Source of the DNA: Gemmatimonas sp.
Lineage (GTDB): Bacteria; Gemmatimonadota; Gemmatimonadetes; Longimicrobiales; Longimicrobiaceae
Direction: 5' to 3'
DNA: 32,850 bases
Assembly: GCA_009380025.1 (NCBI GenBank)
Contig: WHSP01000032.1
Location: 1-32,850, forward strand
Below the pieces are notes generated by a model. It was not told the DNA's origin. It did no database searches and saw only the letters and a program-made list of their open reading frames with translations. Shown here one piece after another: positions 3,669-32,233 of this stretch. Every line of letters starts with the position of its first letter. The stretch's first letter is position 1. The translations under genes were made by a program, and so were the position numbers.

Positions 3669-3756
3669 ACCGCAGCGTGGCCCCGGGGTTCGACTCCCTG
3701 CATATGTCTCCGTAGCCTTGCGCATTCTTCTCGCACACCGCGCGTAGGCTCTTCAC

Positions 3757-5265: not shown

Positions 5266-5277
5266 AGCCAGACTCAA

Positions 5278-12449: not shown

Positions 12450-13244
12450 TCAGTCACGATCACTTGCGAGTTCCATTGTCAGCGAGCCTTGTCCCTCATC
12501 ACAGGGACTGGATCCTCTCTCCAGGAACGGGATCAATCCCCAGAGGTCCGACAACAGCCCATTATTCGGCAACGCCGCCAGCTGGGCCTCGGTATGAGAT
12601 CCATTGGTAACGGCTAGCGAGAGGCCACAGCGCGCACGTCTTCCCGACTCCAGATCCGAGGGAGTGTCCCCCACATTGATGACCGACTGGCGGCCTTGAA
12701 CGTGTAGCGCCGCGATCACCCGTTGGATCATGTCCGGTGCGGGGCGTCCTGCCGCGACCTCATCACTCGCAACGGACATCTGAATCAGGCTGTCATCGGT
12801 GCCGATGTGCCTGTCATCCAACCCATCCAGCCATCCCAAGCGTTCGAGGATCAGATCGGTAACGAGCCGATAGAACCCTGTCGTTAGAGCGATCTTGATC
12901 CTGCGTTCGCGTAAGTATTCGAAGACCTCCAAACATCCGATAGTGGGCGCAACCTCTTGGGTGCGGTAGTGGTGCTCCAGAATCTCTCTGAACGTTTGGA
13001 ACGACTCCTCTACCCGGTCGGCCCACGGATTTCGCTGACCACCGAGCTGCCTTTCCCAATAGGTTTCGAATACAGCACGCTTGGAGTGCCCTTGTACGGC
13101 CAGGATTTCGTCGGCCGTCATCTGCAGACCCGTCGCCGCTGCGGCTTCAGCGAAGCAGGCCTCCACTACGTTGTCGTCCTGAACCGTCGTTCCCGCCATA
13201 TCGAAGATTACCAGTTCCACGGATCCGCCAGCAGTCTTTGTCAT
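12450..13244 (-). CDS. HAD-superfamily hydrolase, phosphonatase-like
   Basis: I start at ATG 13244 (MTKTAGGSVELVIFDMAGTT); the frame is open upstream to 13379 without similarity. The 264-residue product has HAD motif I as D-M-A-G-T. The second acidic residue is replaced by Ala, as in phosphonoacetaldehyde hydrolase and its relatives. A lysine in the cap segment VQGHSKRAVFETYW could be the Schiff-base-type lysine of true phosphonatases, but the fit is not certain. Motif II is LTTGFYRLV, and motif IV is VGDTPSDLESGRRARC. It most resembles the phosphonatase-like hydrolase subfamily found with phosphonate breakdown genes. It is read in the same direction as the upstream OPA-family transporter, about 270 bases away. 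Together they suggest import and breakdown of an organophosphate or phosphonate. Confidence 0.82.
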   Translation of the reverse strand: MTKTAGGSVELVIFDMAGTTVQDDNVVEACFAEAAAATGLQMTADEILAVQGHSKRAVFETYWERQLGGQRNPWADRVEESFQTFREILEHHYRTQEVAPTIGCLEVFEYLRERRIKIALTTGFYRLVTDLILERLGWLDGLDDRHIGTDDSLIQMSVASDEVAAGRPAPDMIQRVIAALHVQGRQSVINVGDTPSDLESGRRARCGLSLAVTNGSHTEAQLAALPNNGLLSDLWGLIPFLERGSSPCDEGQGSLTMELASDRD

Positions 13245-13518
13245 TCGTCTTGGACGTAGTTCCCATCCGGGAAGTTTGCAACTCGTTGTTGAAGCCATCA
13301 CAATACGACGCATCCGGAACTCGCGATCTTGCACTGCAGCGGGTATTGTCATTGTCGCCGCAACAACAGAAAATGTCACGCAGGGTCCGAGCTTTGGTCT
13401 GGTGAGCGCGATCCGGGCTAAGGACGGGTAGTCGATCCCGCTACTCGATACGGAAGTCGCTGGGAAAGTCGCGCTCTGGCACTACGCTCATGTTGCTCGT
13501 TCGCTCGGTCTGCGCGCA
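13245..13518. other. Gap between transporter and HAD hydrolase genes
   Basis: There are about 274 bases without a convincing gene. The upstream extension of the HAD frame runs through part of it. No strong terminator or promoter was recognised. Confidence 0.35.
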
Positions 13519-14820
13519 CTACCTTCGAACCGGCAGAATGACAAGGGCGCCCAGCGCACAGGATACGCTCAAGATCAAAAAGAGGACCGTCGTACCGAAG
13601 CTATCGATTGCCCACCCGATGAGCGGACCGGTCCCTGCCGCCACCAAATACGCCCAGAAGTTCATCACACCGGTCGCTGTCGCCGCACGGTAACGGCCCA
13701 ACAGACCGGGACAGAGAGCCCAGTAACAGGAATGGGGTCCGTAGACCAGAAACCCGGCCAGAAACAGCAAAACGATCCCGACGCCTAGCCACTCCACGGG
13801 CGCTACGTAGATCAGCAGCAATACGACCACCGCAAGGGCCATGAACAGGGCGATCGGGCGCGAGCGGTTCGATCCGAAAAATCTGTCCGATACATACCCC
13901 GCACTCAATGCCCCCAATGCCATCCCCACCGGCAGAGCGACCCCGATCCACACAGCCATCGGAAGGTCCTCATACGCCGGCCCCATCAAATGAACCGGAA
14001 CCCAGATCACCAAACCATACCGTGCAAAACTCTCAAATCCGATCGACAAGACGGCCAGTAGAAAGCGCCAATCCTTGAACACTTGACCGTAACGCTGCAG
14101 AGAACTCTCCTCCGCTCCTCCCGGAAGCGCATCGTGATGGTCGTCCTCGATGGGAGAAAGTCCAACGTCTTCCGGCTTGTCGCGCGCCACAAACCAGAAC
14201 ACGATGCAGGCAACGCCCAAAAGCAGCACCGGAAGACGGAACACCCACTCCCAGCTAATGCGCATCGAGGCAAGGCCCGCACCGATTGCATAAATCACAA
14301 CCGACGAAGACCCTGCCGCGAAGACGTACAAGCCGTAGGCCGTCCCACGTTCCTTCTCTGGCCACCAATTCGACAACATGCGGCTCCCGGGAGCCCACGC
14401 CATCGACTGTGCATATCCGTTGGCTGCCCATGGCGCGAATATCGTCCAGAAGGAGGTCCCGAAACTCACGACCCAGTTGAGCACAACGGAAAGAAGACCT
14501 CCCACCGTCACCATCACGCGGCCGCCAAACTTGTCCCCGAGATTCCCGTTGATGAACTGACCGAGCCCGTAGGTTACCAGAACCGCAGAACTGATCCAGC
14601 CCAACTGCTGCATAGAATAGCCCAAGCTCTCGCTCATCGAGCTCATAGCCCAGCCGAAGTTCTGGCGGCCCGTATAGTAGAACAAATATGCGAGCATAAG
14701 CCCAAACAGGACACGGAGCTTCCACCGCCGTCGCGTCTGTGCCTCGCCTACCGCGCTCTGCTTGCCAGAAACCTCGACTTCCGCTGTCGTTAGCATGGAT
14801 TGGCCGTCATTTTTCAGCAT
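13519..14820 (-). CDS. OPA-family MFS transporter (GlpT/UhpT-like organophosphate:phosphate antiporter)
   Basis: This 433-residue protein has about twelve hydrophobic segments and the OPA signatures. The first helix ends YLFYYTGRQNFGWAMSSM, with the conserved Arg (R52) that contacts phosphate in GlpT. It also has GQFINGNLGDKFGGR, the loop-2 MFS motif, and the block SNWWPEKERGTAYGLY. OPA carriers exchange organophosphates such as glycerol-3-phosphate or hexose-phosphate for inorganic phosphate across the inner membrane. Substrate cannot be read from sequence. The neighbouring phosphonatase-like hydrolase hints at a phosphonate or phosphate ester. The ATG at 14820 gives an extended cytosolic N-terminus; ATG 14796 is an alternative, and neither has a strong ribosome-binding site. 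Confidence 0.88.
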   Translation of the reverse strand: MLKNDGQSMLTTAEVEVSGKQSAVGEAQTRRRWKLRVLFGLMLAYLFYYTGRQNFGWAMSSMSESLGYSMQQLGWISSAVLVTYGLGQFINGNLGDKFGGRVMVTVGGLLSVVLNWVVSFGTSFWTIFAPWAANGYAQSMAWAPGSRMLSNWWPEKERGTAYGLYVFAAGSSSVVIYAIGAGLASMRISWEWVFRLPVLLLGVACIVFWFVARDKPEDVGLSPIEDDHHDALPGGAEESSLQRYGQVFKDWRFLLAVLSIGFESFARYGLVIWVPVHLMGPAYEDLPMAVWIGVALPVGMALGALSAGYVSDRFFGSNRSRPIALFMALAVVVLLLIYVAPVEWLGVGIVLLFLAGFLVYGPHSCYWALCPGLLGRYRAATATGVMNFWAYLVAAGTGPLIGWAIDSFGTTVLFLILSVSCALGALVILPVRR

Positions 14821-15151: not shown

Positions 15152-16084
15152 TCAGGGTTCCCTACTACTGACAATTGCGTTGCGAATGGCGTCGGCAATG
15201 AGCTTCGCACGGTAGTCGATCAGTTTCCGTCCGTTTGTGGCTAGTTGCTCCGGCGATCCCCAGTCAACGCCATAGGACGCCTGGGGGCCAGCCGCGATCC
15301 GCTCGGCTGCTCGTACGGCCGCGGGATTGACGGCCATGGTCACGGCTGAATAGTAGTAGCCCTCGTGGGTACCGACCGGATTGCGACCATCTTGTAGATA
15401 CCTGTCGCCGCTCTCCGGAACCTCCTGATCCATCACCTCCTCTACCACACCGAGGACATCCCGCAGGAACGTTGAAGCGTGCCCGTCATCTTCCAACTGA
15501 TCTCGGTACTCCGGAACGAAGTGGGCTCTCGTTTCCCCCGGCCCCCAGCGCTTATCGAGCTCCGTCACCGTCTCGAAGGCCGGACCAGGTCGTTCCTGAC
15601 TGGACGATCCCTCATGCTCTGCAATGACGACGATATCCCGAAAACCGTGGTGGCGTAAATTGCTGAGGATGTCGACTAGAAGCTCTTGAAAGACCTCCCT
15701 TCGGACAGCCATACTTCCCGGCCACCGCATATGACCTGTGGCTGGATCGATGCTTCCTCCAGGGCCTATTGCCACAATCGGCGCCACAAGAGCATTGCCG
15801 AGGACACGCGCTGTGGTCTCTGCGATGCCCTTGACGACGAAATTGTGCTTGCCCAACGCGAGATACGGCCCATTTTGCTCCGTCCCTCCGATCGGCACGA
15901 TGACCGTGCTGTGCCCAGTTGCAATGGCGTCGCGAACCTCCAGCCACGTTAGCTCCTCGAGAAATACACTGTGTGACAGCGGCGCGACGGCAGATGCCCC
16001 CCTTGCCTGGGAGGACACTGTACTCGGCATCAGGGAAGCGAGAGACACGGCGAGGCCCAGTGTATACCACGTTTTGCGGGTCAC
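15152..16084 (-). CDS. Secreted creatininase-family hydrolase with variant metal site
   Basis: I choose the GTG at 16084 because GGGGAAGAGGG lies just upstream and the product then opens with a clean signal peptide (TRKTWYTLGLAVSLASLM ... TVSSQA). The protein has about 310 residues. The creatininase fold is visible as VIVPIGGTEQNGPYLALGKH, GSIDPATGHMRWPGSM and LRHHGFRDIVVIAEHEGS. Canonical creatininase binds two metals through E34, H36, D45, H120 and E122. Here E69 is kept, but the H36 position is Asn71 and the D45 position is His80, with H157 flanked by E156 and E158. So the metal set is altered. Relatives hydrolyse cyclic amides or formamides, but the substrate here is unknown. Export is unusual for the family. 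It follows the ankyrin gene by 284 bases and may belong to the same transcript or have its own promoter. Confidence 0.82.
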   Translation of the reverse strand: MTRKTWYTLGLAVSLASLMPSTVSSQARGASAVAPLSHSVFLEELTWLEVRDAIATGHSTVIVPIGGTEQNGPYLALGKHNFVVKGIAETTARVLGNALVAPIVAIGPGGSIDPATGHMRWPGSMAVRREVFQELLVDILSNLRHHGFRDIVVIAEHEGSSSQERPGPAFETVTELDKRWGPGETRAHFVPEYRDQLEDDGHASTFLRDVLGVVEEVMDQEVPESGDRYLQDGRNPVGTHEGYYYSAVTMAVNPAAVRAAERIAAGPQASYGVDWGSPEQLATNGRKLIDYRAKLIADAIRNAIVSSREP

Positions 16085-16368
16085 AACAAGCCCTCTTCCC
16101 CGGCGCAATAGCGAGCTGCCTCCACGACGGGCTCCGTGCTGCTGCGCGTTGCATTTCAGTTCCGATCGCATATGCATCGTCTCCAGAAGTTGTCCGCCAA
16201 CACAGGTCGCATTAGCCTGAGCAACTGGATGGCGTTGTAGATGAGAAGGCGCAGGCCAGCAGTTGCGGGCCTCCACTCTTCAGAAGAGAGAAGCGTTTCG
16301 CAGAGCAGTCCAGCTATGCTCCTCCAGCGTCGCTAAACCCTTCGTGAGGACCGACCCCGTCGAAGAGA
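16085..16368. other. Gap between ankyrin and creatininase-like genes
   Basis: The creatininase frame is open through most of this gap to 16276, with possible ATG starts near 16171-16177 preceded by TGGAG. These would bury the signal peptide, so I treat the stretch as leader DNA. No clear terminator or promoter is visible. Confidence 0.4.
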
Positions 16369-18390
16369 TCATTGCCCCGCGGAAGTGTTCCCTTCAGCCG
16401 GCGGAGAATCCGAATCGACACGACGAGCATAATCGTAGATCTCCTCGAGAAGGCGCACGCTCGTGTAAAGTTCGTCAGGGCTCCGTTCGGTCAGCGGCTC
16501 CTTGGAAAAGCCGTACCGATCTTCGAAGGACGTCGTGCCGGCGACAGGACAAAAGTATCCACCTTCCCTGATGAACGTGTGTTCGCACACCAGCGGGGAG
16601 CCTAAACTCACAAGCAGCTCTTGCGTGTCCGGATATTTGTTCCGCGCCCAAACGCCGACCTTCCCCCCTCTGGTCATATCCGCAGCGCTTTGCCCAAGTC
16701 GCGAAAGGGCCGTCACGTCAGCCCCCTTGGATACGAGATAGCGGACCATCTCGTTATCCCCCCTAACAGCCGCATAGTGGAGCGGCCTGTAACCCCAGGA
16801 GTCGACCGCGTTCACTTCGACACCAAGATCGTCTACCAGGAACTTCACCGCGGCCAAAAAGCCGTCCGGCACACCTCGCATCTTGAATGAACCTTGGCCC
16901 AGCCAGCCCCCTCCCGCCGCCGCATGGATGGGGAACACGTCCGGTTCACCCTCTGGAACCGGCGGCAAGCCGGAATCGTCCTGCCCCCGCCCGTCGGGCG
17001 TCCGGCCATGGCGTATCAGCTCCGGGGCTACGGTCGTCGGGATCTCGGGATCCGCACCATAGGTGGCCAGCACGCGCATCGCCTCGACGTCCTGAGCGAT
17101 CGCGGCACGCCAGAGGGGAGTGGCACTCGTGAGGTCCACGCCGATGTCTCCACCGTGCTCCCAGTACCAAATGTGTGTCTTGAGGCGGACGTTGGGATCA
17201 GCACCCGCCTGCAGAAGCGCCTCCATGACATCGAGATGGTGGGCCTTCTGCTGAAGGTGCGCCAGGCGGTTGGGATAGTCACTGACGGTAGGCCAACGCG
17301 TCTGAAGCACGGCAAAAAGCGGCGTCACGCCGTCTGTGGAGGTGGCGAGTGTTGGATCGGCACCCCGTTCCAGCAGCCGAAGCATGAGATCGAAGCGTCC
17401 ATTCAGAGCCGCGATCACCAGGGGGCTGGCTGCGTCCGCTGCTGAGACCTGGTTGACGTCCGCACCCCCATCCAGGAGCGCCATCGCCGCGTCTATATGC
17501 CCCTCGCGAGCCACGTGCAGGAGGGCAGTCATTCCGCCCGTTCTCCTCACGAGGAATTCCCTTGCCCCAATCCCTGATGCCCCTCGCTCTGATCCTGGTC
17601 CGATCAGGGCGGTCGGGCGCTCGAACACGGTGCTCACGAGTTCGGGCTCGGGATCGGAAAGCGACGCCCGTTGCTCACGGATGGCGGCCTGGACCTGGGT
17701 GGGGCCAGGGCTCTCGACGGCATCCAACTTTTCGCTTAGCGCCGCAGCAGCGCTCAGATCCTCTCTGAGCTGGTCAAGCGCATCCACGACCCGCGTGGTC
17801 GCTGCCGGGTCCGCGCCCGCAGCCAGAAGCCTCTTGACCGACTCGGTCCGGCCGTACGACGCCGCGAAGATGAGAGGCGTCTGTCCGGCCGCCTTCTCCT
17901 TCTCATTCACATCGGCCCCCGCCTCTATGAGAGCCGCTACGATGTCCTCTCCTTCCTCGGCGGCGGCAGCTAGGTGAAGGGGCGTCGCCCAACCATTCGC
18001 AGTGGTCGCGGCAATGTCCGCCCCGGCGTCGATCAAGAGCTTCGAGACAGCGGTATGTCCCCTCTCAACGGCAAGATGCAGGGGAGTGTACGTGCCGATC
18101 CGGGTTCCAGCAGACACGTCCGCTCCGGCCTCGAGAAGAAGCCGCGCAACCTCGACGTCTCCGCGCCCCGCGGCCCAGTGAAGCGGCGTCATGCCGTCGC
18201 CTTCGGCGGCATTTACGTCCGCACCGCTCTCGATCAAGTGCCGGACCGCATCCACGTCACCGTTTTTCACCGCATCGACGATCGGATCTGATGAGGACGG
18301 GACCCCGGCGCTGATCAGGAAGGGCACCAGAAACAAAGCACCCCACACTCGTGCGCCTAACTGGTGCGTCTTCGCCATTCGCGTCGTCAT
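16369..18390 (-). CDS. Exported ankyrin-repeat protein
   Basis: The ATG at 18390 overlaps the stop of the upstream DUF1552 gene (TGATG), with GGAG seven bases before it. GTG 18393 would add one residue. Of the 673 residues, the first 30 form a signal peptide (ALFLVPFLISAG). Ankyrin repeats fill about residues 35-215 (for example GDGMTPLHWAAGRGDVEVAR, GYGRTESVKRLLAAGADP-like units), 285-420 and 505-585. A non-ankyrin linker (about 215-285) is rich in charged residues. The tail holds two cysteines (C602, C614) in VCEHTFIREGGYFCPVAGTT, which could form a disulfide. Ankyrin repeats bind proteins. Being exported and translationally coupled to the DUF1552 and DUF1592 genes, this one probably scaffolds or inhibits those partners in the periplasm. 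Confidence 0.88.
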   Translation of the reverse strand: MTTRMAKTHQLGARVWGALFLVPFLISAGVPSSSDPIVDAVKNGDVDAVRHLIESGADVNAAEGDGMTPLHWAAGRGDVEVARLLLEAGADVSAGTRIGTYTPLHLAVERGHTAVSKLLIDAGADIAATTANGWATPLHLAAAAEEGEDIVAALIEAGADVNEKEKAAGQTPLIFAASYGRTESVKRLLAAGADPAATTRVVDALDQLREDLSAAAALSEKLDAVESPGPTQVQAAIREQRASLSDPEPELVSTVFERPTALIGPGSERGASGIGAREFLVRRTGGMTALLHVAREGHIDAAMALLDGGADVNQVSAADAASPLVIAALNGRFDLMLRLLERGADPTLATSTDGVTPLFAVLQTRWPTVSDYPNRLAHLQQKAHHLDVMEALLQAGADPNVRLKTHIWYWEHGGDIGVDLTSATPLWRAAIAQDVEAMRVLATYGADPEIPTTVAPELIRHGRTPDGRGQDDSGLPPVPEGEPDVFPIHAAAGGGWLGQGSFKMRGVPDGFLAAVKFLVDDLGVEVNAVDSWGYRPLHYAAVRGDNEMVRYLVSKGADVTALSRLGQSAADMTRGGKVGVWARNKYPDTQELLVSLGSPLVCEHTFIREGGYFCPVAGTTSFEDRYGFSKEPLTERSPDELYTSVRLLEEIYDYARRVDSDSPPAEGNTSAGQ

Positions 18391-19826
18391 CACGCTGCTC
18401 CAGTCCGAGAGATTCCGGTAGCGGGGTGTCCTGTGTGGTTCGGAGATGTCAACGGAAGAAGTCCCGTGCTGTCCCCGAAGAAATGGACGTCGTCGTGACC
18501 GATGCCACGTAGTAGGCTCACGAAGGCGTTGGCCATCGGTGTCCCGTCGGGGGCTTTGATATGGACGTTGCCCTCCAGAGCGCCGTTCGCCTTACCGATC
18601 AGGATGAGAGGGCAGCGCGAGTTGCTGTGGACGTTGGGATCCCCCATGGCCGAGCCCCATAGGATGGCGGTCTTATCCAGGAGGGGAACGCCAGCCTCGG
18701 TCGTGTCCCGGAGCTTCTCCAGAAGGTATCTCATCGCGCTGAGGCGATAGGTGTTGATCTGCTGGTAATCGTAGATCACGTCATGGACGTTCGCGTGGTG
18801 GGAGGTCGCGTGGAAGGCCTTGAGGACCCCGCTCTCCGGGAAGATGCGACTCGACGAATCGCGGCCCGTCTTGAACGAGATCACGCGCGTGAGGTCGCTC
18901 TCAAGCGCCAGCACCTGCAGATCGAACATGATCTCCATGTGCTCCATCCAGGAGTCGGGAATGTCTATTGGAGCTTCGGGGAGGGCACGTTCCTCGCCGC
19001 TGGAGTTGCGTGCCTCGACGAGCTCGATCCGCCGCTCAATCTCACGCACGTCCTCCAGAAATCCGTCCATGGCAGCGCGATCGGACGCTCCGAGGGAAAT
19101 TCGTAGGCGAGACACCTCCTCCCCGATCCGGTCGAGTAAGCTCCGCCGGGTTTCCAGGCGAGCGGCTCGGTCTTCGGGCGAGTAGCCCTGCCCGAAGATC
19201 CGCTCGAACGCGACGCGGGGGCTGCGGATTGCCGGAAGCGGTTCGCTGGGCGACGCCCAGCTGATCCGATGGGCATAATGAGCATGGTAGCCGCCACCAC
19301 CGCCCCCAGTGTCTGACTCGGTGTCAAGCTGAAGGGACGGAAGAGGCATCTCCTGCCCGTAACGCTGGACGTGCAGCTGATCAAGCGAACGCCCGACAAA
19401 GAGATCGCTTCCCTGCGTCCGCTTCGGGTGGGATTGGGTGAGGAACACCGCAGTCGTGCGATTGTGGCCGCCACCGATCTCCTCTGGCGTCCATGCTTCG
19501 GCCATCTGGCAATCTGTATTGGTCACGACCGTCAAGTAGTCGCGAAAATCCTCGAGGGGCAACAACTGGCTCTCGGGTCCCAGCTCGAAGTTGCGGCCGA
19601 TCGTCAGAGGTTCAAACAGGTGCCGCTCGAGCCCCAAGGGGCTGGACCCGGCGGACCCCATCACCTCCTCGATACAGATCAGACGCGTGCCGCCTGGCTC
19701 CGCTGCCAAGTCCCGCCACCCCCGGCCGGCAGGGACCATCGCGTCCAGCATCGGAAGGGCCACAGAGGCGCCCATACCCCGCAGGAAGCTTCGGCGAGAC
19801 AGGTGCTTGCCGGTGATGAAGTTCAT
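18390..19826 (-). CDS. DUF1552 family protein, Tat-exported
   Basis: The 478-residue product starts at ATG 19826, with GGAGG nine bases upstream. It opens with a twin-arginine signal, LSRRSFLRGMGASVALPMLD, so it is likely exported folded, perhaps with a cofactor. The body shows DUF1552 features: GTRLICIEEVMGSAGS, VVTNTDCQMAEAW, HNRTTAVFLTQSHPKRT, LDTESDTGGGGGGYHAHYAH, ISFKTGRDSSSRIFPESG and TAILWGSAMGDPNVHSNSRC. The His-rich and Asp/Glu-rich blocks recall the alkaline-phosphatase/sulfatase-like fold sometimes proposed for this family, but its activity is unestablished. DUF1552 genes are regularly found directly after DUF1592-type genes, as here (27-base gap). The ankyrin gene is translationally coupled downstream. 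Confidence 0.9.
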   Translation of the reverse strand: MNFITGKHLSRRSFLRGMGASVALPMLDAMVPAGRGWRDLAAEPGGTRLICIEEVMGSAGSSPLGLERHLFEPLTIGRNFELGPESQLLPLEDFRDYLTVVTNTDCQMAEAWTPEEIGGGHNRTTAVFLTQSHPKRTQGSDLFVGRSLDQLHVQRYGQEMPLPSLQLDTESDTGGGGGGYHAHYAHRISWASPSEPLPAIRSPRVAFERIFGQGYSPEDRAARLETRRSLLDRIGEEVSRLRISLGASDRAAMDGFLEDVREIERRIELVEARNSSGEERALPEAPIDIPDSWMEHMEIMFDLQVLALESDLTRVISFKTGRDSSSRIFPESGVLKAFHATSHHANVHDVIYDYQQINTYRLSAMRYLLEKLRDTTEAGVPLLDKTAILWGSAMGDPNVHSNSRCPLILIGKANGALEGNVHIKAPDGTPMANAFVSLLRGIGHDDVHFFGDSTGLLPLTSPNHTGHPATGISRTGAA

Positions 19827-19853
19827 TTCAGTCCACCTCCAATTGGAATGGAT

Positions 19854-22379
19854 TCAGTTATTGCTATCGTCAGTTCTAGCGTCCACCTGCCGCGTACGGA
19901 ACGCATCGCTCTGCACCACTCCCAGGATGAATGACGACATCCGGTAATCATTCGCCTTCGCAGTTCTCTCAATGGCGCGTACCGTCGGCTGATCGAAGTA
20001 CTCGGCGCGGCGGCCGATGGCGTACCCGAACAAGTTGTTGACAAAGTTCCTGACCACCGGCTCGGGCCTCTGGAGAATTACCTCCCTCAGATCAACAGGA
20101 GTGCCGATGGCCGTCCCATCGTAGAACTCGCTCTCTGTGTTCAGAAGCACGCCGTTTTCATCCCGAACCCGCCACCGCCCCACTCCGTCGAAGTTGTCCA
20201 GCGCCAGCCCGATGGGGTCCATGTACTGGTGGCAAGCGTTACACGTGGGGTTCGCCCGGTGGATCTCCAGCCGCTCTCGGGTAGTAAGGATCCGGCCCTC
20301 GCTGGCCTCAGCGGTTGCCTCGAGCAGAGGCACGTTGGGTGGGGGCGGCGGGGGTGGAGACCCGAGGAGAACCTCCATCACCCACTGGCCCCTGACGACC
20401 GGCGAGGTTCGCTCATCGAAGGACGTCACCATCAAGACGCTACCGTGACCCAGAAGTCCGAACCTGTTCGGGTCCGAGATCGGGATCTTCACGAACTCGT
20501 TGTCCGACCCCGGGCTGGGCATGCCGTAGTGGTGAGCCAGCGGCTCATTCACGAAGGTGTAGTCGGCCGTAAATAGCTCAAGGAAGCTACGATCCTCCCG
20601 AACGAGGTGATCGAAGAGCAACTCCGTTTCACGGTGCATGCTCTCCGCTACGGCGCGGTTGAAATCAGGAAAGAACTCCGGGAGTGGCCTTTTCCCGGCC
20701 AGATCATCGAGCCGGAGCCACTGCGGAGCAAAGCGTGTGGCCAGCGACATCGAACGAGGATCGGCCAACATCCTCCTGACCTGCTCCTCGAGCACTTCCG
20801 GATCGTTGAGCGTTCCCTTCTCGGCCAGTTCCAGCAGCTCACCGTCGGGGCCCGTGCCCCAGAGAAAGAACGAAAGGCGCGACGCAAGGTCCACGTCGTT
20901 CAACGCGTATGTCTCGCCTTGGCTCAGGCCCTCTGGCTCCCGCTCGAGGCGGAACACGAACGAGGGGTTGGAAAGGATCCACTGGAGAGCCCTCCGGATC
21001 CCGAGTTCGAAGTCCCCGTCCTCTCTGCCTTCCTCGTAGACCGACATAAGAGCCGTCAAATCTTCAGCCGCGAGAGGCCGGCGGTATGCCTCGCGGGCGA
21101 GACGCGAGAGGATGGACTCGGCGCACGAGAGCTCCTCGTCCGGCATGCTGGGATAGCAACTGAAGATGATTTCGCGGCTCCTCTCGTCACCGGACGCGTC
21201 TCCAGGCGCAGGATTGTACGGTCCGTCGATGGTGAACCCGCTCAAGTGGGGGAGACCGGTGAGCCCATGGTTGGCCCAGCCTCCCCCCGATGTTCCTCCG
21301 GAGGACAAGTCGTGCGGGCTCAGTGGATCGTCGTACGGGCCTTCCATCTCGCGGACAAATGCGACCGAAACCTGGTGCTGGCCGGCGCGAACAAAAATCG
21401 GCTCGGTCGAAACGGCCGGGCCGGAGGACACCGGGAGGTGCAGGAGTGCGGCTGGCTCCTCGTCGATCGAAATGTCGACGTCCGCGGGCGCCGTACCTCG
21501 CCCGAGCTCCGTATCCAGCGAAAAGACGTACTCGCCATCGACTGGGAAGTCATGCGACACAGCCGTCCCACCTCGCGTGCCGAACGGTGTGCCCTCAACA
21601 TGATCCCAGGCGTGCTGCGAAACCTCCACCGGGACCTGGTAACTCACCGGAAGTGGCGGAGGAAGCTGATTTCCGACGCCGATGGCCATCCGGCTGATAT
21701 CTTCAGCCGCACCGAGATAGGCTTCTAGAGTCGTAGTGGAGAGGTCTTGAACGGTCGACCACGTGTCGTAGCTACGCACAAAGCGGTCGCCCGGGAGCCA
21801 CCGCTCCGCGTCAACGTCGAGTCCGAGGAGGTCTTTGATTACCCGCTCGTATTCGCTTCGGTTGAGCCTTTGAAACCGACGAATTCCTGGCGGGCTCGGG
21901 GTAGAAGCGGCAGCCTGATCGATGATACCCTCTAGCGTTTCCGCTAAGACTGTAAGCGTGTCCCCTCCGGGTCGCGGCATATCAGGTGGCGGCATCATCG
22001 CCAAGCGAAGCTTGTGGATCATCTTCTCCGCTACTTCGGCGTGCTCATCCGCCTCTGCCACATCGAACCCTTGCAACGAGAGATTGCCGGATTTCAGCTG
22101 GTCGCTATGGCAAGTTGTACAGTACTGTTCGACAACCGCATTCAGGTCCTCCGATGCAATTGCGGGATTGGCAGTTCTCGCCGCCTCTCGGATCGCTCTC
22201 GGGTCATGAGTACTCCGTTCCGCGGTCCGGGCTAGCGGAAAATCGGCAAGCAACCGATTCATGCTGGCTGTGGCGCTCGGCCGAGCATCGGCCCCGAATG
22301 CCTCGTCCCCCCGAGGCAACTGGCTCCCGAGCACAGTTACGAATCCCAACACCGCGGCGACCATCGCTATTGGTCTCAT
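19854..22379 (-). CDS. Exported multidomain DUF1587/1595/1592/1588/1585 protein with c-type haem motifs
   Basis: This is an 841-residue protein with signal peptide MRPIAMVAAVLGFVTVLG. A cytochrome-c-like N-terminal domain carries CTTCH at residues 87-91 and a later MMPPPDMP that could give the distal Met. Then come, in order: a DUF1587-like block (RFQRLNRSEYERVIKDLLGL), a carbohydrate-binding-like middle (YVFSLDTELGRG ... GQHQVSVAFVREMEG), DUF1595 (LAREAYRRPLAAEDL), DUF1592 (DLASRLSFFLWGTGPDGEL), DUF1588 with a second CxxCH (TCNACHQYMDPIGLALDNFD), and DUF1585 at the end (VRNFVNNLFGYAIGRRAEYF). The set is typical of planctomycete and acidobacterial/gemmatimonad cytochrome-like proteins of unknown reaction. 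The ribosome-binding site GAGGGGAAAG precedes ATG 22379. It sits between the SusD gene and the DUF1552 gene. Confidence 0.9.
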   Translation of the reverse strand: MRPIAMVAAVLGFVTVLGSQLPRGDEAFGADARPSATASMNRLLADFPLARTAERSTHDPRAIREAARTANPAIASEDLNAVVEQYCTTCHSDQLKSGNLSLQGFDVAEADEHAEVAEKMIHKLRLAMMPPPDMPRPGGDTLTVLAETLEGIIDQAAASTPSPPGIRRFQRLNRSEYERVIKDLLGLDVDAERWLPGDRFVRSYDTWSTVQDLSTTTLEAYLGAAEDISRMAIGVGNQLPPPLPVSYQVPVEVSQHAWDHVEGTPFGTRGGTAVSHDFPVDGEYVFSLDTELGRGTAPADVDISIDEEPAALLHLPVSSGPAVSTEPIFVRAGQHQVSVAFVREMEGPYDDPLSPHDLSSGGTSGGGWANHGLTGLPHLSGFTIDGPYNPAPGDASGDERSREIIFSCYPSMPDEELSCAESILSRLAREAYRRPLAAEDLTALMSVYEEGREDGDFELGIRRALQWILSNPSFVFRLEREPEGLSQGETYALNDVDLASRLSFFLWGTGPDGELLELAEKGTLNDPEVLEEQVRRMLADPRSMSLATRFAPQWLRLDDLAGKRPLPEFFPDFNRAVAESMHRETELLFDHLVREDRSFLELFTADYTFVNEPLAHHYGMPSPGSDNEFVKIPISDPNRFGLLGHGSVLMVTSFDERTSPVVRGQWVMEVLLGSPPPPPPPNVPLLEATAEASEGRILTTRERLEIHRANPTCNACHQYMDPIGLALDNFDGVGRWRVRDENGVLLNTESEFYDGTAIGTPVDLREVILQRPEPVVRNFVNNLFGYAIGRRAEYFDQPTVRAIERTAKANDYRMSSFILGVVQSDAFRTRQVDARTDDSNN

Positions 22380-22428
22380 CTTTCCCCTCTATCCCCTCTC
22401 GGTGCTCACCGCCGCCACGCTGCACGGG

Positions 22429-22456
22429 TCCGATTCTCGGCCTCTCCGGAATCGGA
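22429..22456 (-). terminator. Intercistronic hairpin between SusD and DUF1592 genes
   Basis: TCCGATTC (22429-22436) pairs perfectly with GAATCGGA (22449-22456), and an inner CGG/CCG pair closes a five-base loop. The hairpin lies in the 96-base gap between the SusD stop and the DUF1592 start. No T-run follows, so it is more likely a processing or attenuation structure than a full intrinsic terminator. Confidence 0.5.
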
Positions 22457-22475
22457 TACGACTCCAGCGCGGGGG

Positions 22476-23708
22476 CTAACGGAATTCGCTCAGGTTCGGA
22501 TTACTGTCGATTTCCCTTCGGCCGATCGGGTAGCATTTGGCCCGCCCTTCCAGCAAAGTGTCCCGGCCCTCTTCATACCAACGGGCCCGGTCCCAGAATC
22601 CACGATGCTCCAACCAGACCGTGGCGCCGCGCTCAAACTTGAATAGCTCCCACGCCTCCGCTTCGCTCGTCGGCTGCGCGACGGGGTCCATTTCCCACAG
22701 GGCCCGGCTCTCCTTCAGTAAGTTCGTCATCCCAGCTATATCCCCCGCCCGAAGGGCCGCTTCGGCCCGGAGGACGAGCATCTCTGGACCGTGAGTGATC
22801 GGGATGTCGGAGTCCTCGGTCGTGTACTTCATTTGCGGCCAGGCCCTGTAATCTCCTCCGCGGGTCGGCGCGGCCACTCCGTCCTCGAGAATCGCGGTTT
22901 TGGACCATGGCACGCGCGGATCGTCCGTCACATTCTCCCACGGGCTCGCCATCATGGTCAGGTAGCGGCTACCGAACTGCTCACTGTAGAACCCATTACG
23001 CACGCCGGCGGTAGCGAACTGTGCCAGGAAAACAAACGACGCCGGCACGAGGCTGGCATCCGCTACTGCGCCATCCCAGTTTCCTTGCCAAGCGCGCACG
23101 CTGGCACGACCGCCCAGCGCCGCCAAGTAGGTCTCCTGCGCCTCCGCCCCAGCGGTCTCCGCGATTCGTGCGGCCTCGCTGAAGTAGGCCTCCGCCAGCT
23201 CGAAATGCACCTCCCGAGGCTGCGCCGGACCGCCGTCGATCACTGCGTGGCAAACGGATTCGCCCAGAAGCCGGTTCGAGAAGCCCGCCCACAAGTTCGC
23301 ACGCGCTGCGTCGGGACTCTGGTCATAGTCAGCGCCCAGGGCCTCCTTGATGCGCGTCACGCCCGCGGACGCCACCCACCGAGCCCGGTGCCAGGCATCC
23401 CACGTCCCCTGCCGATCCACGATGTCGGGATCCAGGTACCCAATGACGTGTTCCCCCTGGTCGGATAGACCCGACGTGATCTCGAAGGCCATTACAGAGG
23501 ACCGCTGCGGCCCCGCGGCGTTCATCGCCCGCGAAAAGTCGGCGGACATTCCCGCCACCAGAGCTCCCACAAAGGTCGGATCATTCAGATCCTCATCCTC
23601 GATGAGGCCTGCGTTAGTCACCTCGAGAAGATCGCAGGCGGACGTTCCGAACACGGCGACAAACAAGCCAGTCGCCACGGCTCGCGCCCTCGTTTTGGAT
23701 GTGTTCAC
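22476..23708 (-). CDS. SusD/RagB-like outer-membrane lipoprotein
   Basis: I choose GTG 23708, 19 bases after the SusC stop, with AGGA upstream. It gives a lipoprotein signal (NTSKTRARAVATGLFVAVFG) with lipobox TSAC and the acylated Cys at residue 25. The 410-residue product has the SusD pattern: CDLLEVTNAGLIEDEDLNDP, then FVGALVAGMSADFSRAMN, helical TPR-like segments, and near the C-terminus FKFERGATVWLEHRGFWDRA, which matches the RagB/SusD C-terminal signature. SusD proteins cap a SusC TonB receptor and capture the ligand outside the cell. Gemmatimonadota carry many such pairs for glycans and peptides. It is shorter than classical SusD (about 500 residues). Confidence 0.88.
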   Translation of the reverse strand: MNTSKTRARAVATGLFVAVFGTSACDLLEVTNAGLIEDEDLNDPTFVGALVAGMSADFSRAMNAAGPQRSSVMAFEITSGLSDQGEHVIGYLDPDIVDRQGTWDAWHRARWVASAGVTRIKEALGADYDQSPDAARANLWAGFSNRLLGESVCHAVIDGGPAQPREVHFELAEAYFSEAARIAETAGAEAQETYLAALGGRASVRAWQGNWDGAVADASLVPASFVFLAQFATAGVRNGFYSEQFGSRYLTMMASPWENVTDDPRVPWSKTAILEDGVAAPTRGGDYRAWPQMKYTTEDSDIPITHGPEMLVLRAEAALRAGDIAGMTNLLKESRALWEMDPVAQPTSEAEAWELFKFERGATVWLEHRGFWDRARWYEEGRDTLLEGRAKCYPIGRREIDSNPNLSEFR

Positions 23709-23727
23709 GATTCGTGTTCCTATGCGT

Positions 23728-26700
23728 TCAAAACGCCACATTGAGCGACGCGGTGAAGGTCCGATACCCCGGCATCGCGTGGTAATCGATGCTCGGGAAG
23801 TCAGCGCCAGAACGCGCCTCCGGATCGTTGCCCCAGTAGTCGGTTACGGTCAAAAGGTTACTCGCGGAAAGCGTGAGCGCGGCCGACTGGGCCCCCGGAA
23901 CCAGACCAGCCGGAAGCTGATAGTCCAAGTTCACGTAACGGAGCCTGAAGAAGGCGTTGGACTCGTACCAGCGGTCGGGCCTCTGGTCCTCAGGGTTGGC
24001 GCTGCATTTCGCCCTGATCTCGGCCGGTAGGTTGTTCCAGTCCGAAGGGTCGCCCTCATTGAGCTTTTGCTGAGCGTGCAGCCCTGGGAAGCAGGGCATG
24101 AACGTCTCATTCAACACCATCCGCTGACCCGTCTGGTTTTGTATGAACGAACCGCCCTGGTATTCACCGAACGCGCTGATCGAGAGGTCGTTCAGAAGGG
24201 TCACACTCGTCCGGAAGCCGAACGTGTGTGTGGGATAGGCAGGGCCAATGTACGAGTCCTCTTCGATGATGGGGTCCGCGATTTCGCCTGCATTGACAAC
24301 CTTCGCTCCGAAGATGGCGGGAACGGGATAGCCTTCCCGCACCCAACCTCGGGAGCCCGAGAACTGGCTGAATCCGTACGGGATTTCCTCGCCGCCCAAG
24401 TCGATTGCTTCACTCTCGAGCAGGCTCAGCATCAGATCCACGTCCCACTGGAAATTTCTGCGGCGCATCAGCCCAAGGCCCAGGGAGATCTCAGCCCCCC
24501 TGTTCTCCAGCGTCCCGACGTTCGTCAGCTGAGCCGAGAGGAACCCCTGGCTCGGAGGGTGCTGCACGGGGACCAAGGCATCGTACGTGCGCTGCAAGAA
24601 CCCCGTGACCTCCGCTGTAACGCGTCCACCGTAGAGGCTGGCGTCGAAGCCGACTTCGTACTCGCGGCTCCGTTCGGGACCCAGTTCCGAATTCCCGAGT
24701 GAGCCCGGGGTGAACCCGGCCTCGAGGTCGCCCGATACGATTGAGCCCCAGCTCCGCACGGCGTCGAACGCCCCGGGAGCCTTACCGGCCTCTCCCATCG
24801 CGCCGCGGAGCCGGAAGAGCTCGAACCAATCGCTAGGCCAGAAGGCCATATCGGATAGGACGTACGAAGCGCTCAGCTTTGGATACGCCTGGAGTCCAAA
24901 GCCCGACCCGAACGCGCTGTTCCCGTCCACCCGGACCCCCGCGGTCAGGAAGAAAAAGTCCTTCCAGCCGAGCACCTGCTGCAAATAGCCCCCGGCATTG
25001 ACCACTTCGAGCGCTCGGTCGCTGTTGACGAGCCTCGTTGCTCCAGAAACCAACGTGGGCTTGACCAGCGGACCCGGGAAATCCTCGACGGTTGTTCGCG
25101 TGTTCCGGGTGTACTCCCGGTAAGCCTGGAAGCCGGCCGACGTCGTCGAGGTGATGTCGCCGTTCCACAGGCTTGCCCTGAAATTGGCTCCGTAATCGAA
25201 CGTTGCCGTACGTGCCTCCCAATCGGTCAACTGATACATGCCCTCCGGCTGCATTATGTGACCGACGTGGTACCAGTGTTCACCCTTGAGCCCGTTGAGG
25301 TCATACCCGACCGACAACCGGTGATCGAACCAAGAGGACGGGAAGTGGTCCAGGGTGAACCCCGTCATGACCTGTCTTCTTCGGTCGATTGGATCTGCTT
25401 GGGAGAAGTGCAAACCGGAAGCTGGCTCACCGGCCACCTGAACCGCACCTTGCTTTCCCCGCTGCATCGGAGCGCTCCATACAGAAGCACTGCCGGCCCC
25501 GATCGGAACCCACCGTTGGGTGTTCAGGCTCAGGCTCGAGTTCCAGCCTGCGCGGAGCGTCGGCGTGAAATCCATGGTGAAATTCGCACGGAACCCTCCG
25601 TCCTTCGTGTAGCCCACGCGATCCACGCCCTCGTAGAAGTCGTTCCCGCTGCCATCGATCGGCGCACCCTCGTCGCTCACACGGCCGCTGAGTGCGTACG
25701 TGAATCCTCCGACGCCGCCCGACACCCGGAGGTTGTAGCGCTGCAGGAAAGCAGGCTTGACCCAATCTCCGTCGCTCGGGCACGTCAGGTCCCGATAAAC
25801 CTCGCCCCGCGCGTTGACGCGATCGAGACAGTTCATGTAGCCCAGCCCATCGGGATTGTTGTCGCCTTTGGCGGGACCCGGCCAAAGGAGGGTGTGTACG
25901 CCTGTAGTAACGCCGACGGACCACTGAGTGGGCAGATTTGCCGATCCCCGACGGGTGAAGATCTGGATCACCCCGCCGGACGCCTCCGTACCGTACAGTG
26001 TCGTGGCAGCAGGCCCCCGCACCATCTCGATCCGCTGGATATCTTCGGCTTTGAGGTGCGAAATGGGGTTGAAGTCCATACCACCGCTTCCCGAGCCGCC
26101 GGTTCCCGCCCGTCGGCTATACATTCGAACCCCGTCGACATAGACGAGGGGCTCATCCCCCTGTGAGACGCTATTGCGTCCACGGAAAGCGATGTTGGGG
26201 GCCGACCCGGCCTGGGGACCACTCTGGCTCATCATGAGGCCAGGCACCTGGCCCTGCAGAGCCTGTGACAGACTCGGGGCCGCCCTCGCCGTCGCCAATT
26301 CCGTGGCATCGAGACGAGAGACCGCCGACCCGACCTCCCGCTGGCGAGCGTTACCAGCCGTGCCGGTCACGACCACCTCTTCGAGGTCCAGCACCCTCCG
26401 GGCAAGTGCCACTTCCAGGGTGACCGGTTCACCAGTAGCAACGGTGACCACGCTGTCCTCCGACCCATACCCCAGGTAGATGAACTGAGCCGTATACGTC
26501 CCGTCAGGCACATCGGATATGGTGAACCGGCCCTGGGCATTTGTCAGCGTCCCCACGCGCAATTCGGGGATGGCCACCTGAACGGACCCCAAGGGACGCC
26601 CCGTGTCGGCCTCTGTCACGATTCCCTCCAAGCTCCCCTGCTCTCCCCGACTGGTCTCCTGGGCCGCCAGGCCCACGGGGACCAGCACCAAGGCAAGGAG

Positions 26701-26733
26701 GCTGCTGGCTAAGTAGATTCGCATCCTATTCAT
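23728..26733 (-). CDS. SusC-like TonB-dependent outer-membrane receptor
   Basis: This is a 1001-residue outer-membrane transporter. It has a signal peptide (IYLASSLLALVLVPVGLAAQ), a carboxypeptidase-regulatory-like domain (GSLEGIVTEADTGRPLGSVQ ... FIYLGYGSEDS), and a TonB-box-like LEEVVVTGTAG. The plug domain follows (LSQALQGQVPGLMMSQSG, RGRNSVSQGDEPLVYVDGVR), then a long beta-barrel ending in the aromatic YRTFTASLNVAF. The plug sequence and the immediately following SusD gene make it a SusC. It moves bound ligands across the outer membrane using TonB/ExbBD energy. It is first in an at least four-gene minus-strand run. No sigma/anti-sigma pair or other dedicated regulator lies upstream in the window. 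ATG 26724 is a possible alternative start three codons in. Confidence 0.92.
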   Translation of the reverse strand: MNRMRIYLASSLLALVLVPVGLAAQETSRGEQGSLEGIVTEADTGRPLGSVQVAIPELRVGTLTNAQGRFTISDVPDGTYTAQFIYLGYGSEDSVVTVATGEPVTLEVALARRVLDLEEVVVTGTAGNARQREVGSAVSRLDATELATARAAPSLSQALQGQVPGLMMSQSGPQAGSAPNIAFRGRNSVSQGDEPLVYVDGVRMYSRRAGTGGSGSGGMDFNPISHLKAEDIQRIEMVRGPAATTLYGTEASGGVIQIFTRRGSANLPTQWSVGVTTGVHTLLWPGPAKGDNNPDGLGYMNCLDRVNARGEVYRDLTCPSDGDWVKPAFLQRYNLRVSGGVGGFTYALSGRVSDEGAPIDGSGNDFYEGVDRVGYTKDGGFRANFTMDFTPTLRAGWNSSLSLNTQRWVPIGAGSASVWSAPMQRGKQGAVQVAGEPASGLHFSQADPIDRRRQVMTGFTLDHFPSSWFDHRLSVGYDLNGLKGEHWYHVGHIMQPEGMYQLTDWEARTATFDYGANFRASLWNGDITSTTSAGFQAYREYTRNTRTTVEDFPGPLVKPTLVSGATRLVNSDRALEVVNAGGYLQQVLGWKDFFFLTAGVRVDGNSAFGSGFGLQAYPKLSASYVLSDMAFWPSDWFELFRLRGAMGEAGKAPGAFDAVRSWGSIVSGDLEAGFTPGSLGNSELGPERSREYEVGFDASLYGGRVTAEVTGFLQRTYDALVPVQHPPSQGFLSAQLTNVGTLENRGAEISLGLGLMRRRNFQWDVDLMLSLLESEAIDLGGEEIPYGFSQFSGSRGWVREGYPVPAIFGAKVVNAGEIADPIIEEDSYIGPAYPTHTFGFRTSVTLLNDLSISAFGEYQGGSFIQNQTGQRMVLNETFMPCFPGLHAQQKLNEGDPSDWNNLPAEIRAKCSANPEDQRPDRWYESNAFFRLRYVNLDYQLPAGLVPGAQSAALTLSASNLLTVTDYWGNDPEARSGADFPSIDYHAMPGYRTFTASLNVAF

Positions 26734-28194: not shown

Positions 28195-28785
28195 CTAATA
28201 GGTCATTTTCGTGGCAGAGTTCTCAATATACAGGTATAGGACAAGCATACGGAGGTGGCGGTCGCCCGGATTGCGGGGCAAGTGAGGAATGCGTCCATCG
28301 AAGAAAAGGGTATCGCCTTCCGAGAGGGGGACGACGTTGTCTCCGATCACGTACTCACACTCACCCTCGAGGACGTATTTGAGCTCGAAGGCGTCGGTCA
28401 CGACCTTTTCGCGCTCGGCGCCCGGGGCGATCGAGAGAAGGACCATTTCGAAACCGATCGTAAGGAGGTTCTTGCTGAGGATGACATCGTACTCGAATCC
28501 GTCGGCGGCCTCCTTCTCAGTTTTCTGGTGATCGTCAGGTCGGACCACAAGATACCGGGCGGATCGGGGTGCGGGGATTCCGTCGAAGAAAGTGTTTGCG
28601 TCTTCTCCAAGGGCGGCGATAATGGACAGCATGACGGGGAGCGAGGGGATCGCCCGACCGTTTTCGATCCTGGAGATCAGGCTCTTGCTGACGTCCGCGC
28701 GGCGGGCCAGCTCACTTGCTTGAAGATTCTTCTCAGTCCGCAGTTTGCGAATTCGTCGACCGATCCCGATCAGGTAGTCTTCCAT
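28195..28785 (-). CDS. XRE-family regulator with C-terminal cupin domain
   Basis: I start at ATG 28785. The 196-residue product opens with a helix-turn-helix of the XRE/SinR type (GRRIRKLRTEKNLQASELAR, then DVSKSLISRIENGRAIPSL). It ends with a cupin_2 domain (FELKYVLEGECEYVIGDN, VVPLSEGDTLFFDGRIPHLP). This HTH-cupin layout is that of small-molecule-sensing regulators of the PuuR/SutR type. The cupin has only one of the usual metal histidines in this part (H in IPHLP). The frame is also open upstream into the AbiE remnant, with no good ribosome-binding site at 28785, so the true start is not certain. The target genes are not obvious. Confidence 0.82.
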   Translation of the reverse strand: MEDYLIGIGRRIRKLRTEKNLQASELARRADVSKSLISRIENGRAIPSLPVMLSIIAALGEDANTFFDGIPAPRSARYLVVRPDDHQKTEKEAADGFEYDVILSKNLLTIGFEMVLLSIAPGAEREKVVTDAFELKYVLEGECEYVIGDNVVPLSEGDTLFFDGRIPHLPRNPGDRHLRMLVLYLYIENSATKMTY

Positions 28786-28869
28786 CGATGATAGTCTGGA
28801 TCCTAGGTTCTCAACCGGCGTGCGCTTGATGCTGATCAAAGCGGGTTTGGTGCAGCCGCGTTCTTCGAC

Positions 28870-28953
28870 GGGGCCGAAGGATATCTGTAGCGGACGCAAC
28901 GGCGCAAGCTCAAGTCCCTGTGTGTCAAGCACCGGATAGAAATGTTTTGGCAC
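28870..28953 (-). pseudogene. AbiEii toxin, 5-prime remnant
   Basis: From GTG 28953 the frame reads PKHFYPVLDTQGLELAPLRP. The start H-F-Y-P-V-L-D-T-Q is characteristic of AbiEii-type nucleotidyltransferase toxins. Similarity ends after about ten codons and the nucleotidyltransferase GG-T-A-L motif never appears. The frame runs into the XRE gene. It lies directly after the AbiEi remnant, in the order expected for abiE operons. Confidence 0.45.
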
Positions 28954-29054
28954 CGTTCTGTCACCGCGGAAGCTGCTCGACCCAAGCACCGCGCTCCGGA
29001 TCCCAGCGACCCTCATCGCGGTCGGCCAGGACTGGGTCGACGAGTGCCGCGGTT

Positions 29055-29362
29055 TTCGAGCGCGAACCTGCTCGGTTGCTTGCTGGATGAGGCGAGCTAC
29101 CCTACCGCCGCTCTGCTCCGCAGCCTCGAGCAAGTGGTCCTCCGTGGTCATGCCACGCTCGAGAGCCTGTTGGACGGCAGCGACAATCTGTTCGGGGCCG
29201 GTTCCCGCCCTCAGCGGCATCAATGATCGACCGCGTCGCGGTTGTAGCCCGGAAGCCCTCCACGACCGTCGTATCCCCCTCTCCGAACGGGCGGGTCGAG
29301 GTATGGATAGTTGCCCCTGACGCCGCGGGGATCTTACTCGAGCCCGCCTCCCGGAAGTCCAT
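29055..29362 (-). pseudogene. AbiEi-family antitoxin, frameshifted
   Basis: Leftward reading gives TIHTSTRPFGEGDTTVVEGF and RATTATRSIIDAAE. After a single-base (G) insertion near 29212, another frame continues AGTGPEQIVAAVQQALERGM, then TTEDHLLEAAEQSGGRVARL. These match the central and C-terminal parts of AbiEi antitoxins (E-G-x-R-x-T-T-x-x-R-T-I-x-D, and the A-L-x-R-G-L-x-T helix). The N-terminal winged helix is not recognisable. AbiEi normally represses its operon and neutralises the AbiEii nucleotidyltransferase. Both halves are damaged here, so the defence locus is extinct. Confidence 0.65.
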
Positions 29363-29435
29363 CGCGCTCCGCCTGGAACTGGATCTGGGCGGGCCCGAGA
29401 TTTGGGCAGCAGCAGTTCGCGCGTGGGTGAGTCCC

Positions 29436-29465
29436 TTGACACATCAACCCTTATTGATTTATCAT
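29436..29465 (+). promoter_or_regulatory. arsR promoter with ArsR-type operator in the spacer
   Basis: TTGACA (29436-29441) and TATCAT (29460-29465) are 18 bases apart. Between them lies ATCAA-N6-TTGAT (29443-29458), so a bound repressor would block RNA polymerase. A start seven bases after the -10 would fall on the arsR ATG at 29472. Confidence 0.75.
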
Positions 29466-29471
29466 GGACCC

Positions 29472-29816
29472 ATGAGAACGACTGAAACGAATCCGACCCA
29501 GGTCGCACGGTGGTTTCACGCGATGTCCGACGAGACCCGCCTCCGGATCATCGAAATGCTCCAGAGCGGCGAGTGCTGCGTGTGCGATCTGCAGGATTCC
29601 GTCGGCGCGGCCCAGTCTCGCCTGTCCTTCCACCTCAAGGTCCTGCGGGAGGCCGGACTCGTGAACGACCGGAAGCAGGGGCGCTGGAATTTCTACTCGC
29701 TCAGGGCCGACGTGCTGGACGAGATGTCCGCTTACCTGCAGGAGCGGATGCCGGACGAGAACCCCTGGGCGGCCTGCGCGTGCGGAGAATCCCATCAGGG
29801 GCAGTGCTGCGACTAA
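29472..29816 (+). CDS. arsR: Arsenic-responsive repressor ArsR
   Basis: The 114-residue protein is an ArsR/SmtB winged-helix repressor. The segment ECCVCDL (residues 34-40) carries the alpha-3 type arsenite-binding cysteines of classical ArsR, in the form C35, C36 and C38. The DNA-binding helix follows (AAQSRLSFHLKVLREAGLV), then the wing RKQGRWNFYSL. Four more cysteines sit at the C-terminus (C102, C104, C112, C113 in ACACGESHQGQCCD) and may add a second arsenite site. ATG 29472 coincides with the predicted transcription start, and no ribosome-binding site is present. An upstream ATG (29464) is out of frame. It represses its own operon through ATCAA-N6-TTGAT sites and is released by As(III) or Sb(III). 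It leads the ars cluster. Confidence 0.93.
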   Translation: MRTTETNPTQVARWFHAMSDETRLRIIEMLQSGECCVCDLQDSVGAAQSRLSFHLKVLREAGLVNDRKQGRWNFYSLRADVLDEMSAYLQERMPDENPWAACACGESHQGQCCD

Positions 29817-29844
29817 GCACCGCCTCTTTTTTTTCAACTAATCC

Positions 29845-29860
29845 ATCAACCTTTTTTGAT
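29845..29860 (+). promoter_or_regulatory. Second ArsR-type operator, upstream of arsM
   Basis: ATCAA-N6-TTGAT repeats the architecture of the operator before arsR (29443-29458). It ends three bases before the arsM ribosome-binding site GGGAGG (29863-29868). This suggests separate or additional control of arsM and the genes behind it. Confidence 0.7.
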
Positions 29861-29872
29861 TAGGGAGGCACT

Positions 29873-30757: not shown

Positions 30758-30772
30758 CCGGACGAGGTGCGA

Positions 30773-31027: not shown

Positions 31028-31093
31028 TCCGAAACACGCAGCCGACGGACAAACGGCCTTCCGGTCGCGCGCTCCATCAATAGCGAAGAAGCG

Positions 31094-32224: not shown

Positions 32225-32233
32225 GGTACGATC

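Follow-up and report, generated by a model that had tools for sequence, protein, structure and literature searches.

Genes for DUF1592, DUF1552 and the planctomycete domains related to them are common (as many as 13 copies in one genome here), and we know of no function for them. In contig WHSP01000032.1 of a Gemmatimonas sp. (genome G000), genes of both types lie behind a SusC-SusD pair, which raises the questions of what such a combination takes up and which of its genes form the functional unit. The whole 32,850 bp stretch that was analysed is referred to below as the window.

Gene content of the locus

The original prediction described six minus-strand genes at 15152–26733, encoding SusC, SusD, a DUF1592 dihaem protein, a Tat-exported DUF1552 protein, an ankyrin protein and a creatininase-like hydrolase (the last four abbreviated D1592, D1552, ANK and CREAT in gene orders), and ORF calls agree on all of them, as do Pfam matches for all but SusD (Table 1). 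The export signals attributed to the products are visible by eye, as Sec signals, a lipobox ending in SAC and the Tat motif RRSFLRG, and the TGATG overlap between the DUF1552 and ankyrin genes is present in the sequence. Two of the reported junction gaps, 96 and 27 bases, are also correct. The third, 19 bases between SusC and SusD, is correct only with the GTG start of SusD, as the ATG start leads to an overlap with SusC instead. Position 16276, annotated as the start of the creatininase gene, probably lies too far upstream; the real start is probably a GTG at 16084 that is followed by a signal peptide and leaves a gap of approximately 284 bp to the ankyrin gene.

While the six genes stand, the limits of the block do not, because the conserved block runs on past 15152 to at least 13519. 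The earlier description lacked two further minus-strand genes downstream, for a transporter of the major facilitator superfamily (MFS) and a PhnX-like HAD protein; the true start of the latter is probably further in than the ORF start. Scans for promoters and terminators across the locus returned nothing informative. An HTH-cupin gene upstream of SusC is a possible regulator of the SusC block, judging from its domains.

Table 1. Positions of the genes discussed, in the window unless a locus is named
Feature	Position	Strand	Remarks
SusC-like TonB-dependent outer-membrane transporter	23728–26733	−	Sec signal; CarboxypepD_reg, plug and barrel
SusD-like lipoprotein	22476–23741	−	Lipobox; start ATG 23741 or GTG 23708
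DUF1592-type dihaem protein	19854–22379	−	PSD3-PSD5-PSD4-PSCyt3-PSD2 (DUF1587/1595/1592/1588/1585)
DUF1552 (HXXSHH) protein	18390–19826	−	Tat signal; PF07586/DUF1552, 243 bits
Exported ankyrin protein	16369–18393	−	TGATG-coupled to DUF1552; type II C-terminal Cys/His tail (CEHTFIREGGYFC)
Creatininase-superfamily hydrolase	15152–16276	−	PF02633, 99 bits; altered metal site
MFS, GlpT/UhpT/PgtP organophosphate:phosphate antiporter family	13519–14820	−	1pw4 E=1.9e-33; family scores below curated cut-offs
PhnX-like phosphonatase HAD	12450–13379	−	DxAGT motif; next same-strand gene after MFS
HTH-cupin putative regulator	28195–28788	−	Upstream of SusC; domains are residues 250–425 of longer ORF 28195–29508
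NHL-repeat protein	L135:2702–3916		
NHL-repeat protein	L171:1368–2597		
NHL-repeat protein	L197:9718–10893		
NHL-repeat protein	L201:12101–13222		
NHL-repeat protein	L110:13257–14510		

The DUF1592-DUF1552-ankyrin triad and its SusCD neighbours

DUF1552 was present in 64 of the 117 relatives searched; within the window's own family it was found only in G000 and in G001, a genome of the same genus. A survey with our own ORF calls, of 20 neighbourhoods in relatives plus 80 named loci of Gemmatimonadota, Acidobacteriota and Gammaproteobacteria, showed DUF1592-DUF1552-ankyrin to be the standard arrangement, with the exact order seen 67 times and a further six tandem doubles in these approximately 100 loci. 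Among 62 core triads the inter-protein distances of the three products correlate at 0.78–0.83, hence the three genes travel together.

The C-termini of the ankyrin proteins take more than one form. In 78 proteins, C-x-x-C forms the very end of the tail (type I) or lies close to it, typically as NNHxCVSC. Twelve, including that of the window, have a type II or near type II tail, in which two Cys flank an H-T-H/F stretch (CLHTHFLDTGDFC and variants). Ankyrins paired with a divergent type of DUF1552 are without the Cys tail. With this conserved C-terminal Cys pair, the triad ankyrins are better seen as a dedicated family than as a generic scaffold. They are the regular third partner of DUF1592-DUF1552, and the organising role first proposed for them is hypothetical. 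The second triad of G000 (contig C471, L031, 7805–13406) is of the divergent type, and its ankyrin has no Cys tail. Tandem triads were seen in L080, L081, L085, L128 and L129, and extra copies in L065 (D1592-D1552-D1552-ANK), L072 (D1592-D1552-D1592-D1552-ANK) and L062 (D1552-D1592-D1552-ANK).

The DUF1592 protein carries two invariant CxxCH haem-c motifs, at residues 87–91 and 713–717, and its AlphaFold model (pLDDT 85) contains an inserted predicted beta-sandwich at approximately 245–390 that resembles CBM6/35/36. DUF1552 has six invariant His. Sequence searches for solved-structure homologs of either protein returned none. When the AlphaFold model of DUF1552 (pLDDT 84) was used to query the PDB with Foldseek, the leading matches were to the alkaline phosphatase superfamily (LtaS, choline sulfatase and phosphonate monoester hydrolase), the best having probabilities of 0.9–0.99 with TM scores of only about 0.35–0.45 and none reaching E≤0.001. 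We tentatively predict an alkaline-phosphatase/sulfatase-like fold; DUF1552 is set apart from that superfamily by its own invariant HxxSHH signature as well as the low TM scores. The DUF1552 proteins of the window, G001 and G051 have lost two features retained by the rest of the family, the Asp in GGDH and a pair of Cys, and this joint loss suggests a substrate-specific subfamily.

Paired genes of this kind are known from Planctomycetes and Verrucomicrobia, where PSD3/5/4, PSCyt3 and PSD2 likewise lie beside a conserved gene of unknown family; the parts of that report on Verrucomicrobia available to us guess at carbohydrates as substrates and mention neighbouring sulfatases (PMC5615132). The triad described here differs in its third fixed partner, the exported Cys-tail ankyrin, none being named in those parts of the report. 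Our literature search found no paper that treats DUF1552 and DUF1592 together.

SusC scores 358 bits against the NCBIfam SusC/RagA model TIGR04056, slightly below the cut-off of 368. The SusD-like protein has no Pfam match; it aligns with SusD-like proteins that come after SusC in other loci. Adjacent SusC and SusD homologs are thus present in the window, the former just below its cut-off and the latter through alignment only. They are also the commonest neighbours of triads, on either side (SusD in 17 of approximately 100 loci), and no neighbour family is dominant for triads in general. In the 12 genomes with both places listed, SusC lies within 8 kb of 8 of 41 DUF1552 copies where 3.8 were expected (P=0.03), and almost all of these copies are in genus g18 and the window's genus. 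The association of SusCD with DUF1592/DUF1552 in related genomes, on which the original prediction was to be judged, is therefore recurrent and not general, with a clear excess in a few lineages only. For this reason SusCD was rejected as a core component; it recurs as a partner without being obligatory, the actual unit being DUF1592-DUF1552-ankyrin.

Two further signals of a tie were set aside. Triad-adjacent SusC proteins cluster in a tree (4 label changes versus 11.7 when shuffled) drawn from a biased comparison set, and a hand count around triads gave a strand bias for SusCD of 18 versus 4, which is not significant (P=0.12) on the assumption that neighbouring genes are on one strand in 65% of cases. 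As close SusC relatives after that of G001 (G000:C142 and G010:C449 in the similarity ranking) are mostly away from known DUF1552 places, we make no claim of exclusivity. One contig filed under Candidatus Kuenenia (L122) carries a SusC that groups with Gemmatimonas, and is probably mis-binned.

Orthologous blocks and their phosphonate genes

In G001 (L135), the order SusC-SusD-D1592-D1552-ANK-CREAT-MFS is kept, with 60–77% protein identity (68% for SusC) and a dN/dS of approximately 0.1 for six of the seven genes, all but the creatininase. The MFS gene is the next gene after CREAT in both genomes and its products are 75.5% identical; in G001 only a few bases separate the two genes. It is followed there on the same strand by genes for an NHL-repeat protein, PhnA and PhnY. 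The PhnA scores 501 bits against TIGR02335, above the cut-off of 407.6, and the PhnY scores 633.7 bits, 2 under its cut-off of 635.7 and 200 above the next family. A search for a homolog of the window's HAD in G001 found none.

G024 belongs to another family. It contains a window-type ankyrin-creatininase pair followed by genes for an amidohydrolase and a PhnW (568.8 bits, cut-off 400.8), and within approximately 15 kb an NHL ortholog, a PafA-like phosphatase, a second GlpT-family MFS and a PhnX-like HAD. In G051, of the same genus as G024, one contig carries PafA-like-SusC-SusD-D1592-D1552-ANK-D1592 up to its end, another begins with ANK-CREAT-MFS and a third carries PhnA; we infer that the first two join to form one block. 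Directly after the MFS gene of G051 are genes for a citrate-synthase-like protein and a SauS-like acylating sulfoacetaldehyde dehydrogenase (507 bits, cut-off 600). A separate window-like triad in G051 (L199:4001–13730 on contig C14, the same region as L058) lies between a divergent xsc, for sulfoacetaldehyde acetyltransferase (859 bits, cut-off 676), and a same-strand pta, which suggests that this triad is dedicated to a C2 sulfonate. Queries with PhnA, PhnY, PhnX and PhnW gave no convincing match in the other fetched triad loci.

Two other genes recur in this setting. An exported NHL-repeat protein is found beside window-type triads (68% identity between G001 and G024), and a DUF5916/CBM9-like protein of approximately 760 aa near triads and the G024 and G051 blocks (L043, L044, L057, L088, L093, L171 and L198).

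The genes downstream of the ankyrin gene were compared with characterised relatives. Relative to the creatininase metal ligands E34, H36, D45, H120 and E122, the window protein keeps E34 and H120, has Asn for H36 and a His aligned at D45, and has lost E122; its NCBIfam creatininase score is 59 against a cut-off of 235. In the MFS protein, Arg aligns by eye at both R45 and R269 of GlpT, which we take to be the phosphate-binding residues. The Schiff-base Lys of the HAD protein aligns with K53 of PhnX and its best solved relatives are phosphonoacetaldehyde hydrolases, with scores below both curated cut-offs (168.5 versus 218.9 for PhnX-like, 91 versus 220 for PhnX).

These genes are rare. When 395 genomes from across the phylum were searched, only G000, G001, G024 and G051 had an ortholog of the MFS, and the same four hold the only creatininases at ≥64% identity, the rest being 42–47% identical. 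PhnA was over its cut-off in 3 of 114 genomes, and a PhnX-like HAD in 4 of 61, weakly in one case. The five genomes positive for PhnA or the PhnX-like HAD include every block genome (P of about 1e-5, a value that overstates independence as the four genomes represent only two lineages or genera). PhnA is also present in G010, which has no block.

Predicted substrate and alternatives

The MFS and PhnX-like HAD genes downstream of the triad, together with PhnA, PhnY and PhnW in the sister genomes, point to a phosphonate substrate. The strongest argument for this class is that different enzymes of one pathway are found at or flanking the same position in sister lineages. We consider it likely that the operon acquires and degrades a phosphonate, most probably a C2 compound of the 2-aminoethylphosphonate type that is attached to a bigger molecule such as a glycan or lipid. 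This reading rests on gene order, conservation, family assignments and co-occurrence, from which we infer what the substrate is, which way it moves and each step of catalysis in the periplasm. SusCD would capture the phosphonate conjugate at the surface and pass it across the outer membrane. The DUF1592 dihaem protein with its putative sugar-binding domain, DUF1552, the ankyrin and the creatininase-like amidohydrolase would then release or oxidise the phosphonate head group in the periplasm, and the GlpT-family MFS would bring the small phosphonate into the cytosol for cleavage of the C-P bond, by the PhnX-like protein in the window and by PhnY and PhnA in G001. The original prediction is partly supported. 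A dedicated system of capture, processing and import agrees with the order SusC to CREAT being conserved in G001 and, over two contigs, in G051; SusCD is optional for triads in general.

The known hydrolytic routes for 2-aminoethylphosphonate are PhnW-PhnX and PhnW-PhnY-PhnA (PMC8154272, PMC8316502). The blocks share with them a PhnX-like HAD that scores below its cut-offs (window), PhnA and PhnY (G001) and PhnW (G024), clustered with a transporter, and differ in the SusCD front and the periplasmic cytochrome/hydrolase/ankyrin trio. The characterised transporters are AepXVW, AepP and AepSTU, with no mention of TonB or the outer membrane (PMC8316502), and no paper linking SusCD with phosphonate uptake appeared among the titles and abstracts listed. 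As in SusCD polysaccharide utilisation loci, SusC-SusD come first, followed by periplasmic enzymes and an inner-membrane importer. The difference lies in the organophosphate-family MFS and C-P enzymes, with no glycoside hydrolase or polysaccharide lyase found. We describe the locus as a SusCD-type utilisation operon with a putative phosphonate back end and the DUF1592-DUF1552-ankyrin trio at its centre.

Neither G000 nor G001 yielded a PhnW above the cut-off, which leaves both without the deamination step. Another aminotransferase may take its place, or the aldehyde may be made by the periplasmic redox protein. The latter leads to a bolder proposal, which we regard as possible though doubtful: a new type of system in which TonB and SusCD take up macromolecules that carry phosphonates, the periplasmic dihaem-DUF1552-ankyrin trio frees the head group or oxidises it straight to a product resembling phosphonoacetaldehyde, and other copies of the trio serve sulfonates and other substrates. 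Direct formation of such a product would explain the absent PhnW. The copy numbers and mixed neighbours of triads argue that their chemistry is not phosphonate-specific, and the genes after the MFS in G051 make a sulfonate or varying substrate conceivable.

An operon for organosulfonates or C2 oxyanions generally, of the taurine/sulfoacetaldehyde type, would account for the SauS-like dehydrogenase in the G051 operon and for the other G051 triad between xsc and pta, and the modelled DUF1552 fold is as much like sulfatases as phosphoesterases. However, the blocks of G001 and G024 contain or adjoin genes for PhnA and PhnW over their cut-offs and PhnY at its cut-off, and the window has the PhnX-like HAD and an organophosphate-family MFS with both Arg aligned. 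We consider this reading unlikely. It is quite improbable that SusCD and the triad serve glycan or polymer utilisation, in which the dihaem protein would cleave the polymer oxidatively and the MFS and phosphonate genes would be separate neighbours. Although the DUF1592 model has a predicted CBM-like beta-sandwich, the remaining fetched triads have no adjoining phosphonate genes and PSCyt genes were linked earlier with CBMs and sulfatases (PMC5615132), Pfam scans of block genes and neighbours found no glycoside hydrolase or lyase. Moreover, the creatininase and MFS share a distribution confined to four genomes, each of which has phosphonate enzymes, and their genes lie almost adjacent in G001. 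Scavenging of amino compounds or peptides could be read from the creatininases (8 loci), DUF1028 (7), amidases (5) and, in some, M28 peptidases that recur near triads. It is very unlikely, as these neighbours are scattered with none dominant, and the window's creatininase has an altered metal site and falls far below its family cut-off.

A C2 phosphonate operon would give one DUF1592/DUF1552 module a concrete, testable substrate class and would connect uptake through SusCD with the supply of phosphorus from C-P compounds. Because the four genomes supply different parts of one pathway, the prediction can be checked by ordinary enzyme assays.

Elsewhere in the window, an arsenic operon occupies 29223–32758 on the plus strand and encodes an ArsR-type regulator, an arsenite methyltransferase (362 bits, cut-off 263), ACR3 (466 bits, cut-off 283) and an ArsC-like reductase. 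An ALIL pseudoknot (Rfam RF01497, 62.5 bits) is at 3585–3685; such pseudoknots usually direct frameshifting in IS3-type insertion sequences. Further genes encode a Fic/DOC protein (3757–5277), bacterial Ig-like domains (Big_1/Big_2; 7091–9220) and an AAA_14-DUF4143 ATPase (10692–11945).
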